Assembly: GCA_025041175.1 (NCBI GenBank)
Contig: JAKCFJ010000001.1
Span: 1,488,001-1,552,000 of the forward strand
Length of the DNA stretch: 64,000 nucleotides
Source: Halobacteriales archaeon YIM A00010
GTDB taxonomy: Archaea; Halobacteriota; Halobacteria; Halobacteriales; Haloarculaceae
Reading direction: 5' to 3'
In this document: positions 4,316 to 59,797 of the stretch, in pieces
How positions within the stretch are numbered: position 1 is the first letter of the stretch
Layout: every line of letters begins with the position of its first letter
The notes under the pieces: generated by a model
Told to the model about the DNA's origin: nothing
Databases searched by the model: none
The model's input: only the letters and a program-made list of their open reading frames with translations
Position numbers and translations under genes: made by a program

Positions 4316-4445
4316 CGGACGATACCATCCCCGGTCAACGAGACGCCCTTGTACTTTTCGTGGTCGGCAAAGCCCCGGTCTTGGAGCTTACCGATCATTT
4401 CGTTGGCGCTTGCGGGACTGACGTCCAGCATGTCGACGACCCGTT
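4316..4445 (-). pseudogene. Fragment of the DtxR-like regulator gene
   Basis: About 130 bp with roughly 90 percent identity to 8461-8590, the winged-helix region of the intact regulator at 8213-8662. Read on the minus strand it encodes LDVSPASANEMIGKLQDRGF and continues through KYKGVSLTGDGIVRA, then loses homology on both sides. There is no start and no effector domain, so it is a dead copy. Confidence 0.85.
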
Positions 4446-23951: not shown

Positions 23952-23997
23952 TGCTCGGTACGGGATTTGAACCCGTGTCGCAGGCTCGAAAGGCCCG
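23952..23997 (-). other. Provirus attachment-site remnant: 3' half of a tRNA
   Basis: On the minus strand a 5-bp anticodon-type stem (CGGGC/GCCTG) closes loop CTTTCGA. A 4-nt variable region follows, then a perfect T arm (ACGGG, loop TTCAAAT, CCCGT), acceptor 3' strand ACCGAGC and discriminator A. No matching D arm lies at normal distance; a GCTCGGC that could pair with the acceptor is about 90 nt too far upstream (24083-24089). The 3' end points to the chromosome and the virus begins just to the right, as expected for a displaced tRNA 3' half at an att site. Confidence 0.65.
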
Positions 23998-24136
23998 CAA
24001 TGATTTCCTCTCCTTCGCCATCTCCGTAACTGTCCTGTGGGACAATTGATAAGCGGGCCAACCCTGCGGCCTGCGGTGATTTGCCGAGCTGTGCACTTGC
24101 TTCCGTTGTGCACACTCACGATTCACACGGGCGGGT

Positions 24137-36021: not shown

Positions 36022-36282
36022 TTGTTGGCTGATCAGGCCCACATGGATTTCGTCATCGTATCGGAAGGCAACGAAACCATGCGCTCGCTCGGAGGGCTCC
36101 ACCTCTCGGAAAAGCGTCGGTTTCTCGAAGGCCGATACCAGCATCAAAAGGCCAAACAGGAACAACGCGATGGCCCACCGCGGAACTCGCTCGAGGCGAC
36201 GAGTCAGTACCGCCAAAGCTTAGAGAAACGGCGGGACGACACGCTCTCACGCATCGAAAACGACTCGAAAGGTTATCAGTAG
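36022..36282 (+). CDS. Tail assembly chaperone (second frame, gpT-like)
   Basis: An 86-residue hydrophilic helical segment (LHLSEKRRFLEGRYQHQKAKQEQ, SQYRQSLEKRRDDTLSRIE). The only usable start is TTG at 36022, yet the frame is open far upstream into the preceding gene. It lies in the -1 frame relative to that gene, and directly precedes the tape measure, as does the T part of lambda gpGT. Either a TTG start or programmed frameshift. Confidence 0.6.
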   Translation: MLADQAHMDFVIVSEGNETMRSLGGLHLSEKRRFLEGRYQHQKAKQEQRDGPPRNSLEATSQYRQSLEKRRDDTLSRIENDSKGYQ

Positions 36283-55517: not shown

Positions 55518-55722
55518 CGCGGTCGTCCTCCGGGATGTACCCACAATTGCAGCAGGAAGCTGTCGTAAGGTGGGCGAGTTTGTAATCACACTTCTCACAC
55601 GCGTATTCCCCGGAGTGGATGTCGTCAGCCTCGTCTCCGGTCGCCGTGAAGGCCTTGCGCTCGCGGACTTTCTGCTCGACGTTGGCCGGCGGTTTGGCGT
55701 TCTCGATCGAATCGGATATCAT
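55510..55722 (-). CDS. Zinc-ribbon protein (70 aa)
   Basis: Start at 55722 (MISDSIENAKPPANVEQKV), which overlaps the preceding stop (GAATGA); the longer frame to 55887 runs through another gene and is rejected. YACEKCDYKLAHLTTASCCNCGYIPE is a four-cysteine ribbon in two CxxC pairs. Confidence 0.7.
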   Translation of the reverse strand: MISDSIENAKPPANVEQKVRERKAFTATGDEADDIHSGEYACEKCDYKLAHLTTASCCNCGYIPEDDRDG

Positions 55723-55844
55723 TCGGGACACCCACAGTTCGCGCACCAATGCAGGCCATTGGCTGATTCGAGCGGCGTTCCGCATTCCCCACACGGAACG
55801 TCCGTTCGGTGGTAGCCTCTTCCGTTCTTCTGTTTTCTCACCAT
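55719..55844 (-). CDS. Zinc-ribbon micro-protein (41 aa)
   Basis: MVRKQKNGRGYHRTDVPCGE continues through CGTPLESANGLHWCANCGCPE: CGECG and CANCG pairs form a compact zinc ribbon with a basic N-terminal arm. It is the first gene after the tRNA-like element at 55887, with GGCAACTACC just before its ATG. Confidence 0.75.
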   Translation of the reverse strand: MVRKQKNGRGYHRTDVPCGECGTPLESANGLHWCANCGCPE

Positions 55845-55886
55845 GTTTGGTAGTTGCCTCTCGATAGCGCACCACCGCGGCGCGCA

Positions 55887-55928
55887 TGGCCCGCCGGGGA
55901 ATCGAACCCCGGCAATACCAATCGGGCC
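55887..55928 (-). ncRNA. tRNA-like minihelix A
   Basis: Minus strand, 42 nt. GGCCCG pairs with CGGGCC (6 bp), the T arm is CGGGG-TTCGATT-CCCCG with a canonical T loop, and a discriminator-like A follows. Counting seven acceptor positions (one A-G mismatch) plus five T-stem pairs gives the 12-bp coaxial stack of a tRNA top half. The linker TTGGTATTGC has a GG like a D loop; there is no anticodon arm. It begins 13 nt after the stop of the 55942 gene. The 3' side continues with CCGCGGTGG and GGCAACTACC before the next ATG. Confidence 0.75.
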
Positions 55929-56748: not shown

Positions 56749-57839
56749 TGGTCGCACGCCGCGACGAGTTCCTCTCCGAACTCGCGTTCAAGCTCATTGT
56801 AGTAGCCATCCCGGCAGCCTTGGCACAGGCACGCACTACCGAATTCGCTGTTCTCCCGGTCGACAACGACCATGCCGCATTCGTCGCAGATTGGCTCGTC
56901 GTGCTCGTTCCGGCGCTCGGGCTCGGTCGGGCAGATTGGCGGCAGGTCGATTCCACCGTCGGTGATGAGTTCCTTCGCCTCCACGCGGTGGTTCTGGTTG
57001 GGGTATTCTTCGTCTAATTCGGCCGCTCGCTCCACCGCTGTAGACTCGTCGCGATATTCGGTGACATGACCGTCTACATCGCTGATAACTCGGTACTCGA
57101 TATCCCGACCACCGTCCGTGACGATTTCCTTCCTCGACACGGCTTTCTTCAGATTGATAGATTGGATGGAGTACCCGAGCGGTCCGTAGTTCCGGACTCC
57201 CTGATGTCCATTCTCACATTCAAACACCTCCGACTCGACCACCGGGCCATCATTCCCATCTCGAACCCGATCGAACTCCATCGGCTCATCGCACACGCTA
57301 CAGTCGAACTCGCGCCCACCGTCGGTGACGAGTTCGGGCTCGCTCTCCACGTCGCCGTAGAAGCCGATTCCCTGGAGGAATGCTTTGGCTTCGGAGTATT
57401 CGATTTCCCACCGGAGTGACAGCTCGATGCCCGCGCTCATTCGGTGGGGGCAAGGCACCCCGTCGCGCAGCGGGAATTCGGGGGTGTCGTCCTCCTCTCC
57501 ACCATCAGTGATGAGTTCGGGCTCGCTCTCCGAGCGGGGCAGCCGGCCGGGGTTCTCGAGGAGCACACGCATGATGTGCTTGCACACGTCCGCGCGGTCC
57601 TCACACTGACAGAAGTACCCATCCGGTCCCTGAAGGTCGACCGCGTAGGTCTCTCCCGAGCCACTGTGAACGCGGTAGCCTGCCTCGGAATACTCTCCCT
57701 TCTCCACCTTCAGGAAGCCGCTCAATGCGCTGTCGGCCCGCGTGCTCGCGTCGTAATCGAACTCCCCGTTCTCGTCTTCGCTCTCGAACTCCTCGAACGT
57801 CGCTTGGTTGGTATCGTTGGTATCGTTGGTAGTTGCCAT
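56745..57839 (-). CDS. Modular SWIM/zinc-ribbon protein with repeated ELITDGG linkers
   Basis: 364 residues from the ATG at 57839 (MATTNDTNDTNQ). First module: SWIM zinc finger (TYAVDLQGPDGYFCQCEDRA, DVCKHIMRVL). Others: CPHRMSAGIELSL; a ribbon CSVCDEPMEF with FECENGHQG; an alpha/beta module (IEYRVISDVDGHVTEYRDES); and a final ribbon (CPTEPERRNEHDEPICDECG, CLCQGC). Between modules stand near-identical linkers ELITDGG, ELVTDGG, EIVTDGG, ELITDGG. First gene behind promoter copy 1; the in-frame codons before 57839 are promoter sequence. Confidence 0.75.
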   Translation of the reverse strand: MATTNDTNDTNQATFEEFESEDENGEFDYDASTRADSALSGFLKVEKGEYSEAGYRVHSGSGETYAVDLQGPDGYFCQCEDRADVCKHIMRVLLENPGRLPRSESEPELITDGGEEDDTPEFPLRDGVPCPHRMSAGIELSLRWEIEYSEAKAFLQGIGFYGDVESEPELVTDGGREFDCSVCDEPMEFDRVRDGNDGPVVESEVFECENGHQGVRNYGPLGYSIQSINLKKAVSRKEIVTDGGRDIEYRVISDVDGHVTEYRDESTAVERAAELDEEYPNQNHRVEAKELITDGGIDLPPICPTEPERRNEHDEPICDECGMVVVDRENSEFGSACLCQGCRDGYYNELEREFGEELVAACDQ

Positions 57840-57848
57840 TTTTCTTCT

Positions 57849-57909
57849 CCCTCTATCTATAGGTATGTGCCACACCCACTTAATACTACCGATTTATTTT
57901 GCCACAATC
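57849..57909 (-). promoter_or_regulatory. Duplicated early promoter, copy 1
   Basis: A 61-bp block matching 56 of 61 positions of the block at 59737. On the minus strand: TGTGGCA, an AT-rich stretch, the TATA-like AGTATTAAGT (57878-57887), a second TGTGGCA, then tatagatagaggg just before the start region. The TGTGGCA boxes are 32 bp apart (three helical turns) and flank the TATA element, so they look like regulator sites. It serves the operon beginning at 57839. Confidence 0.8.
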
Positions 57910-58206: not shown

Positions 58207-58460
58207 TGGTATGCCTCCCCCAACCCTCCCCAGTCGTCTTTCGGGTGACCGTGGGTGTCGAAGGCTCCGTGGAGGAACCGATGCTGTTCGTCTGAGAGAG
58301 CTATGACCCGCACTTTGGTGTGGATCGTGTTGTCAGATACGAACTCGTAGAAGTTCGCACGGTGGTGGTACGAATCGAACGTGAACGCCACACCCCCGAT
58401 TACGAACTTTGCTACGCCGTGGTCCAGTACCTCTATCTCGTTGTCGAATGCGTCTGTCAT
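58203..58460 (-). CDS. Hypothetical early viral protein (85 aa)
   Basis: Beta-rich start (NEIEVLDHGVAKFVIGGVAF), His-rich middle and end (SYHHRANFYEF, HRFLHGAFDTHGHPKDD). ATGA overlaps at both ends. No family recognised. Confidence 0.65.
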   Translation of the reverse strand: MTDAFDNEIEVLDHGVAKFVIGGVAFTFDSYHHRANFYEFVSDNTIHTKVRVIALSDEQHRFLHGAFDTHGHPKDDWGGLGEAYQ

Positions 58461-58924
58461 TGGTCTGCCTCCCGAACTCGCTCCACCACAACGCTGTTGT
58501 TCTCGAAATCGATGCTCCCGAAGATTTCGAATCCGGCTGCACGGATGTCTCTCACATCCATATCGGTCAGACGGTCGTATCCTGACCTGATCCGGTACCG
58601 ATCGCCGTATTCTTCGGCCGTCTCGAAATCCGATGTCACATCTTGGAGTATCTCCAAATCCGTGGGTTCTTCGTCTTTCACGTCGGGTTCTCGAACTCGC
58701 TCTATTTTCACACTGACACCCCCCGGAGACTCGCGGAGGACGCGGCCGGTGATCTCGAACCCCTGCTCGCGCAATCGGTCGATCTCACCACCGGTTATCA
58801 TCCGGTGTTCCGATTCGACAATGTACGACCCATCCATCGGTATGACCGTCTCGTACCCCGACAGCAACGATTCGAGTTCCTCGCTCGTTTCCACCGCGCT
58901 AAGATCCATTGGTATTTCGTCCAT
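58457..58924 (-). CDS. Protein with a tandem internal repeat (155 aa)
   Basis: Two copies of a 50-residue unit. The first is centred on HRMITGGEIDRLREQGFEIT then VSVKIERVREPD; the second on YDRLTDMDVRDIRAAGFEIF then VVVERVREAD. Each reads strand, helix, strand. It starts after minihelix B and the GCAACTACC motif. Function unknown. Confidence 0.7.
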   Translation of the reverse strand: MDEIPMDLSAVETSEELESLLSGYETVIPMDGSYIVESEHRMITGGEIDRLREQGFEITGRVLRESPGGVSVKIERVREPDVKDEEPTDLEILQDVTSDFETAEEYGDRYRIRSGYDRLTDMDVRDIRAAGFEIFGSIDFENNSVVVERVREADQ

Positions 58925-58956
58925 GGTAGTTGCTTCCCCATCCCACCGCGGGATGA

Positions 58957-59000
58957 TGCCCCCGCACGGAATCGAACCGTGCTACGCCATCGCCGGGGGT
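58957..59000 (-). ncRNA. tRNA-like minihelix B
   Basis: Minus strand, 44 nt. CCCCCG pairs with CGGGGG (6 bp, with one end mismatch to reach seven), T arm CACGG-TTCGATT-CCGTG with canonical loop, then C and discriminator-like A. The linker GCGATGGCGTAG again holds a GG flanked by D-loop-like bases. The first base coincides with the stop codon of the 59000 gene. Downstream come CCGCGGTGG and GCAACTACC before the ATG at 58924, the same order as after minihelix A. Confidence 0.75.
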
Positions 59001-59095
59001 TAGTCGGTATCCAACGCCCAATCACACACGTCGCAATCGGAGATCGGAACATCCTGCAACGCGTTGCATCGCGGACAGCGGGCGCGTCGGGTCAC
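59000..59095 (-). CDS. Zinc-ribbon micro-protein (31 aa)
   Basis: A GTG at 59095, three bases after the previous stop, gives VTRRARCPRCNALQDVPISD and continues CDVCDWALDTD: CPRC and CDVC, twelve residues apart. An ATG at 59128 inside the previous gene would give 42 residues. Its TAA stop overlaps minihelix B. Confidence 0.65.
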   Translation of the reverse strand: MTRRARCPRCNALQDVPISDCDVCDWALDTD

Positions 59096-59097
59096 CG

Positions 59098-59727
59098 CTA
59101 TCTCCCCCGCATCGAGCACTCGCGGCATCGGATGCCGTGATACCCGTGGAACGATTCCCCGCATGATGGGCAGTCGCTGTGGACCTGCTCGGCCTCGTCG
59201 CGGCATTCGAACGAGCAGTACTTTGGGACGTTACGCGCTTCAATCCCGTATTTGATCTCCGCTTTACATCGGTCGTTTTTGCAGGTTGTTGTTGGCTGCA
59301 TTGGTGTTCCTCCGTCGGTGACGAGTTCCTTGCCCGCGTTCTCGTCGTCTTCAGGCTCGGCATCCCCGAACAGGTCTTTGAGTGCTCCGCACTCGGTACA
59401 TTGGAACCAGCGAACACCCCGCGCAGTCTCGTAGGTGACTGTCTCGGTCTCACACTCGCATTCGTCACACTCCCACGAATCGATGCGCTCCGGGTCACCG
59501 AGCGAGCGGCCACCGTCGGTTTCCTCCTCGATGAGTTCCCATCCGAACTTGGTGGTTTTGGCCATCGCTTTGGTGAATGGGACGATGATCTCACTCTCGC
59601 CCAGTTCGTAGATCAGGTGGTTTTCCCCGTCATGGATCTCCCACCCTTTGACCGTTCGTACGTCCTCGTCGGCTTCTACGGTGAATTTGTCGCCCGTTTC
59701 GAGATTTCGGAGTTCGTTGGTATCCAT
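59098..59727 (-). CDS. Multi-zinc-ribbon protein with an ELVTDGG linker
   Basis: About 209 residues from the ATG at 59727 (MDTNELRNLETGDKFTVEA; the ATG just before is equally possible). A small beta domain leads to CDECECETETVTYETARG with FQCTECGALKDLF, then the linker GKELVTDGG, then CKNDRCKAEIKYG with YCSFECRDEA and a last ribbon CPSCGESFHGYHGIRCREC. An EEETDGGRS earlier is a degenerate linker. It shares promoter type and linker with the 56745 gene. Confidence 0.75.
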   Translation of the reverse strand: MDTNELRNLETGDKFTVEADEDVRTVKGWEIHDGENHLIYELGESEIIVPFTKAMAKTTKFGWELIEEETDGGRSLGDPERIDSWECDECECETETVTYETARGVRWFQCTECGALKDLFGDAEPEDDENAGKELVTDGGTPMQPTTTCKNDRCKAEIKYGIEARNVPKYCSFECRDEAEQVHSDCPSCGESFHGYHGIRCRECSMRGR

Positions 59728-59736
59728 CATCTGTCC

Positions 59737-59797
59737 CCCTCTATCTATACATACATGCCACAACCACTTAATACTACCGATTTATTTTGCCACAATC
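59737..59797 (-). promoter_or_regulatory. Duplicated early promoter, copy 2
   Basis: 61 bp, 56 identical to copy 1 at 57849, with the same TATA-like AGTATTAAGT (59766-59775), flanking TGTGGCA boxes (59756-59762 and 59788-59794 as TGCCACA on plus) and downstream tatagatagaggg. It stands between the nuclease gene stop and the multi-ribbon gene at 59727. Confidence 0.8.

Follow-up and report, generated by a model that had tools for sequence, protein, structure and literature searches.

A haloarchaeal provirus carries between its genes two short elements, A and B, whose sequence and covarying fold place them in the t-element family; each is followed at once by a hairpin and, shortly after, by a start codon. 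We consider it likely that the two serve as tRNA-mimic processing signals between cistrons, at which predicted cleavage would give the mRNA behind them a hairpin at its 5′ end. Positions refer to the window, the whole analysed stretch of 64 kb. The features concerned are the following, from the upstream to the downstream end of the minus-strand region:

59734..59797, minus strand: 64-nt AT-rich repeat, 0.73 kb upstream of B (repeat search, 91% identical to the other copy)
59000..59206, minus strand: upstream ORF with a zinc-ribbon-like C-terminus, its TAA ending at base 59000
58957..59000, minus strand: element B, a tRNA-like minihelix (t-element) (sequence, A/B covariation, match to model R3 at E 2.8e-8)
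58939..58955, minus strand: hairpin behind B, CAUCCC-GCGGU-GGGAUG, 6 bp (sequence, compensatory changes relative to A, hairpin enrichment)
58925..58933, minus strand: GCAACTACC directly 5′ of the ATG behind B (sequence)
58457..58924, minus strand: 155-aa ORF behind B (ORF list)
57846..57909, minus strand: second 64-nt AT-rich copy, 1.9 kb upstream of A (repeat search, 91% identical)
55887..55928, minus strand: element A, a minihelix of 12 bp as 6+6 (sequence, covariation, match to model R3 at E 9.3e-7)
55867..55885, minus strand: hairpin behind A, GCGCGCC-GCGGU-GGUGCGC (sequence, covariation relative to B)
55849..55857, minus strand: GCAACTACC behind A (exact copy)
55719..55844, minus strand: ORF of a small CxxC protein, 41 aa, behind A
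23952..23999, minus strand: other attachment site of the provirus, a 48-bp repeat of the tRNA-Glu 3′ part

Anatomy and genomic context of the elements

Element B comprises 44 intergenic bases shaped as the top half of a tRNA (acceptor/T arm) and reads, on the minus strand from 59000 to 58957, A CCCCC GGCGATGGCGTA GCACGG TTCGATT CCGTGC GGGGG C A. Its acceptor strands (59000-58995 with 58963-58958) and T stem (58982-58977 with 58969-58964) form 11 bp over 12 positions, position 1.72 being an A.C mismatch (A59000.C58958). The T loop TTCGATT occupies 58976-58970, the 12-nt linker GGCGATGGCGTA (58994-58983) carries GG, and the element ends in the discriminator-like A58957, with T58956 next. Element A, which reads GGCCCG ATTGGTATTG CCGGGG TTCGATT CCCCGG CGGGCC A on the same strand, has the T loop TTCGATT, the linker ATTGGTATTG and the discriminator-like A55887. 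The initial annotation had described two copies with different stems and the same fold, T loop, linker type and 3′ context, and all of these are present on the minus strand; it had also noted that B begins on the closing base of a stop codon, and base 59000 is indeed the final A of the upstream ORF's TAA.

Each element is followed by CCGCGGTGG, GCAACTACC and an ATG, an arrangement previously taken for a shared downstream module. The module is there behind both elements, but it is a covarying hairpin and not a linear motif: CCGCGGTGG forms the loop and upper stem of the second hairpin in both, leaving no free motif, and the hairpin starts exactly two bases past the discriminator-like A in A and B alike. 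Behind the hairpin come GGGGAA, GCAACTACC and the ATG in B, and GCAACTACC, four bases and the ATG in A. Exact copies of GCAACTACC lie at 55849, 56571 and 57828 on the minus strand and at 36282 on the plus strand, those at 57828 and 56571 sitting just within the opening codons of two adjacent genes. The 155-aa ORF behind B had no Pfam match.

The surrounding DNA is a tailed provirus that extends from 23.95 kb of the window and contains terminase, portal, head and tail genes as well as exonucleases, A and B lying in a minus-strand stretch of small genes. An integrase gene and an intact tRNA-Glu gene adjoin each other 11 kb past the window, and a 48-bp tRNA-Glu repeat is found at both provirus ends (23952-23999 of the window and L051:11253-11327 in the flank), which gives the provirus a length of ~51 kb. 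Because the attachment sites are this repeat at the ends, A and B are internal and are not attachment sites. That the elements are the remnant of an attachment site or a decayed tRNA gene of the virus is scarcely credible, even though PMC7230728 and PMC8707807 describe haloviruses that carry partial tRNA genes as attP, and the T arm is the part usually used: the repeat is far from A and B, the compensatory changes described below indicate selection on the fold, and two copies with unlike stems occur in each of two unrelated viruses.

The two 64-nt AT-rich repeats stand upstream of the genes heading each gene series and are probably the promoters of two operons, with one element inside each. 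The proteins adjoining B and the exonuclease proteins had no relatives in the genome contigs or viral contigs. A 438-aa ORF, used as a query for related viruses, matched common proteins and was discarded as uninformative.

Evidence for the fold

The criteria for a minihelix were satisfied exactly twice in the window, compared with three times in total when the entire 64 kb was dinucleotide-shuffled 200 times. A third minihelix-like match in the flank (L051:8496-8542) was rejected, as it falls within a gene that encodes a zinc-ribbon protein. When A and B were compared over minihelix and hairpin together, both sides had changed in 8 of 19 pairs; the mean among shuffles was 4.1, only 2 of 500 shuffles reached 8, and the pairing was lost when one strand was slid. 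This agrees with the earlier reading of the compensatory stem differences as a sign that the fold matters. The local folding energy of B was ordinary for such GC-rich sequence (z −0.31), and the evidence for B is its covariation and family membership, not folding energy.

For A, RNAfold favoured an alternative pairing of GGUGG with CUACC, a result that speaks against the processing model, and it drew the same pairing for B when given a slightly longer sequence. Both stretches are identical between A and B, as might be expected if the GCGGU hairpin and the GGUGG/CUACC pairing competed to free or hide the start codon while the minihelix sensed the state of tRNA processing. We judge such a translational switch to be distinctly unlikely. 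With two copies only, the conservation may reflect a recent common origin; the elements of the HF2 group, of SH1 and of haloarchaeal chromosomes retain the hairpin without the GGUGG/CUACC stretches; and GCAACTACC occurs within coding starts as well.

Two simpler identities were rejected. ARAGORN reported zero tRNA genes at A and B, with no full cloverleaf bearing an anticodon, and no Rfam 15 family exceeded its gathering threshold in the window, which argues against a tRNA gene; at nine related loci, the Rfam 15 matches were ordinary tRNAs only. An intrinsic terminator was dismissed, there being no T run behind either helix.

Membership in the t-element family

The initial annotation had proposed building a covariance model from the two copies. 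This model, R1, recovered clean minihelices across the order, so further members exist, contrary to the refuting outcome that the annotation had named; an independent model of 5S leaders matches A and B. The latter model, R3, was made from 14 t-elements preceding 5S rRNA only and provides a non-circular test of A and B. In the window, R3 ranked B first and A second, at the E-values listed above, with the next match at 0.0056. Over the 6-Mb genome of the host itself, three matches were found at E<1e-3: the genome's own 5S leader (2e-11), B, and A. R3 also matched both elements of HF2; elements of HRTV-8, HCTV-7, SH1, HRTV-27 and HHTV-2; and four elements of L326, a viral contig of bacterial type.

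The traits of t-elements are present in both copies, namely an acceptor/T-arm helix of ~12 positions with no D or anticodon arms, a T loop of the form TTCGANT and a GG in a short linker. The distance from element to start codon is 32-42 nt, and the hairpin begins 1 nt past the predicted cut. Judged by helix, T loop, linker and the model matches, A and B belong to the t-element family. The host encodes both RNase P RNA and RNase Z.

The t-element or mini-tRNA upstream of the Haloferax volcanii 5S rRNA was reportedly described by Hoelzle et al. in 2008 (RNA 14:928) and 2012 (Biochimie 94:940), the second study being said to have surveyed t-elements in one genome. It resembles A and B in its 12-position acceptor/T helix, T loop and GG linker and shares the A1.C72 mismatch with B; it also immediately precedes the RNA whose 5′ end is set by it, as A and B are predicted to do. 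Unlike it, A and B precede protein genes of a provirus and have a hairpin right behind. As reported in PMC4326828, tRNase Z cuts the H. volcanii 5S leader element. In Haloferax, t-elements placed on both sides of a crRNA, as an artificial RNA, are cut in vivo by the same enzyme and RNase P, and the RNA between them is released (PMC4326828, PMC4946936).

Haloarchaeal relatives and the hairpin behind the minihelix

Elsewhere in the order, the strong R1 matches proved to be clean, mostly intergenic minihelices that share the T loop and a GG linker; two of the first members (L063 and L065) lie directly 5′ of 5S rRNA. R1 matches at E ~0.1 were near chance (92 of 392 genomes, with ~39 expected), and the strong matches and the models R2 and R3 were used instead. 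R2 was made from an alignment of 26 haloarchaeal elements from which B was left out. In this alignment, 94.5% of cells were paired, 10 of 12 pairs showed double changes and 73 cells were doubly changed, a pattern reached by none of 500 shuffles; the percentage paired is biased upward by the rows having been found with a structure model, a bias that does not account for the variety of compensation seen. Both the T loop and the GG of the linker were near-invariant. At position 1.72 (columns 1 and 43 of alignment A5), an A.C mismatch is more usual than a pair.

With R2, matches at E<=1e-4 were found in 259 of 392 haloarchaeal genomes, many of them 5S leaders. Other chromosomal elements stand 20-35 nt 5′ of genes for Peptidase_M73 (camelysin)-like or DUF1102-type proteins, most with an intervening hairpin, and the products have twin-arginine-like N-termini. 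These loci (L062, L066, L058, L069, L397 and L373 for Peptidase_M73-like and L064, L077, L082 and L084 for DUF1102-like proteins) come from several genera of haloarchaea, and their products are of a secreted surface type. On the smaller contigs C6 and C4 of the host's own genome, three elements (L359, L361 and L365) lie 3-4 nt 5′ of the ATG of genes for a family of 153-154 aa, where cleavage by tRNase Z would yield nearly leaderless mRNAs.

A hairpin within 10 nt behind the element was found in 22 of 35 (63%) non-5S haloarchaeal elements, compared with 8.3% in shuffles, and in 0 of 17 elements of the 5S type. Its presence in the mRNA type and absence from the 5S type indicate that the hairpin belongs to the use in mRNA. 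Viruses of the HF1/HF2 group vary little in the minihelix, and their second hairpin compensates in three of six pairs.

Relatives in haloviruses

HF2 (NC_003345) carries two elements in its early region (2905-2947 and 4375-4416), both following one plan, in which the minihelix precedes a hairpin whose loop is GUAA or ACGA, and GTGACACCG and ATG come next; the stems differ. Two copies on one plan are thus a layout common to HF2 and the window, while the surrounding sequence differs. By BLAST, 47 virus records contain the first HF2 element, and 41 contain the second. SH1, HHTV-2 and HRTV-27 have the minihelix, hairpin and start codon within the gap between two genes; of these, HHTV-2 and HRTV-27 are further tailed viruses, and SH1 is a tailless one from a different realm. 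HGTV-1 gave one weak match only, and ChaoS9, phiCh1, phiH1, BJ1, Humcor1 and HJTV-4 gave no match, so that the element is common but not universal among haloviruses.

PMC8707807 gives a primer-extension 5′ end of HF2 at T-4384, interpreted there as a start site. This base falls in the linker of the second HF2 element, off the predicted tRNase Z site, and may be a stop of the reverse transcriptase or a processed end rather than a start site. Lying inside the element and matching no predicted cut, it neither proves nor excludes processing.

An early scan of viral contigs for the T loop combined with CCGCGGTGG gave 14 matches, which were set aside as largely ordinary tRNA neighbourhoods of other phages. 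In these, CCGCGGTGG is often the 5′ end of the neighbouring tRNA, and none of the 14 had the minihelix-hairpin layout.

Elements in bacterial-virus contigs and cyanophages

Using a loose pattern, we found the match to lie within a minihelix at 43 of 120 viral-contig loci but at 3 of 117 loci on cellular-genome contigs, which are mostly ordinary tRNAs and were used as a control. The total helix length was 12 in 47 of 85 viral elements, the strand break varying between 5/7, 6/6 and 7/5; such clustering at 12 despite the varying break is expected of enzymes that measure the acceptor/T stack. Only 8 of 76 viral-contig elements were inside ORFs, compared with 844 of 1,520 random places, and a stop codon was present within 60 nt upstream in 48 of 76 cases on the same strand versus 21 of 76 on the opposite strand.

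Several bacterial-type viral contigs hold multiple copies. L326 repeats four times the series of minihelix, hairpin, ribosome-binding-site-like sequence and ATG, while the intergenic minihelices number 8-9 in L189 and three each in L113, L116 and L140. In T7-like cyanophage contigs (L095, L109, L117 and L131), a minihelix forms part of the conserved leader of the capsid gene, and one cyanophage psbA leader also contains a minihelix. The cyanophage isolate NATL1A-7 (L418) has a complete tRNA-Gly at the corresponding place before its capsid gene, and this exchange of minihelix and whole tRNA supports the view that processing as a tRNA is what matters. Cyanophage S-RIP2 was excluded; its capsid leader is conserved, but the upstream structure fails the minihelix criteria. 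The bacterial-virus cases may be convergent with the haloarchaeal elements.

Proposed processing and competing explanations

Under the processing model, A and B would mimic the acceptor/T-arm half of a tRNA within a polycistronic viral transcript. Host tRNase Z would cut past the discriminator-like base, at the predicted sites 58957/58956 in B and 55887/55886 in A, and the predicted 5′ ends of the downstream mRNAs are then one base before the hairpin (58956 and 55886), not at CCGCGGTGG. RNase P could cut on the 5′ side, by the stop codon of the upstream gene, and free the upstream mRNA. The processed mRNA would begin with one U and enter at once a hairpin of 6-7 bp, the leader extending for 32 nt in B or 42 nt in A up to the start codon. 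The hairpin would probably protect the new monophosphate 5′ end against 5′-3′ decay and keep the leader ready for translation, and the genes behind the element would be uncoupled from those ahead, with a presumed effect on expression.

The overlap of B with the stop codon constrains the 5′ cut. Cleavage by RNase P 5′ of A59000 would take the last base of the stop codon, implying that such cleavage is absent, late or one base further in; the A.C mismatch would permit a cut one base later with the stop codon kept. As in B, the final base of a stop codon is exactly the first base of the element in 7 of 40 non-5S elements.

The structures might instead stay uncut in the mRNA, with minihelix and hairpin forming a barrier that blocks exonucleases, marks the upstream 3′ end or prevents read-through by ribosomes. 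Strong helices right behind stop codons on the coding strand would suit this role, and it requires no enzyme. Yet a barrier has no need of a TTCGANT T loop, a near-invariant linker GG or a helix of 12 positions, the relatives in 5S leaders are cut, and in cyanophages a whole tRNA takes the place of the minihelix; we therefore regard this explanation as unlikely. A role in trans appears very improbable. The many copies on some contigs, such as L189, could suggest that freed minihelices act as decoys, occupying the tRNA-processing or T-loop-modifying enzymes of the host or mimicking tRNA against a defence system, but the position between stop and start codons, the association with a hairpin and the presence before cellular genes and 5S rRNA favour action in cis. 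Processing between cistrons remains our preferred reading.

Relation to known systems and significance

In mitochondrial tRNA punctuation, and with the t-elements of plant mitochondria, intergenic tRNAs or tRNA-like structures direct the cleavage of polycistronic RNA by RNase P and RNase Z. The elements described here differ in belonging to another domain of life, in being minihelices without D and anticodon arms, in their paired hairpin and in their location in viral operons. In RNAs of the MALAT1 mascRNA type, the end of a long RNA arises where RNase P and RNase Z cleave a tRNA mimic; these are eukaryotic, retain more of the tRNA and, unlike A and B, serve 3′ ends. The element type itself is already known as the t-element.

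According to PMC8707807, the long early and late transcripts of HF2 and phiH1 are thought to be processed, and intergenic repeats of HF2 are described as promoters; a term search of the main text of that article found no description of a minihelix at HF2 2905-2947 or 4375-4416. In a limited literature search that covered few subscription papers, we found no description of t-elements in viruses, of the paired hairpin, of operons, viral or cellular, that use hairpin-paired t-elements, or of tRNAs exchanged for the element before capsid genes.

A broader proposition, which we see as evenly balanced between true and false, is that DNA viruses of archaea and bacteria have, in a minimal tRNA mimic followed by a 5′ hairpin, a general module for mRNA processing. 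The module would be swappable with tRNA genes and placed ahead of strongly expressed genes (capsid, psbA), haloarchaeal chromosomes would use it ahead of genes for secreted surface proteins, and viruses would hijack tRNase Z and RNase P to split operons into hairpin-protected mRNAs.

Little is known about how archaea process their mRNA, and reports on haloviruses describe long transcripts that come apart into small mRNAs. How this happens becomes directly testable with a compact cis signal whose cut sites can be predicted and which occurs in laboratory viruses such as HF2 and SH1 and in operons of many haloarchaeal genomes; for annotation, it is a feature that can be searched for and that Rfam and tRNA finders overlook. 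If the model is true, it would extend tRNA punctuation to viruses of archaea and bacteria and give tRNase Z and RNase P a further part in viral gene expression.
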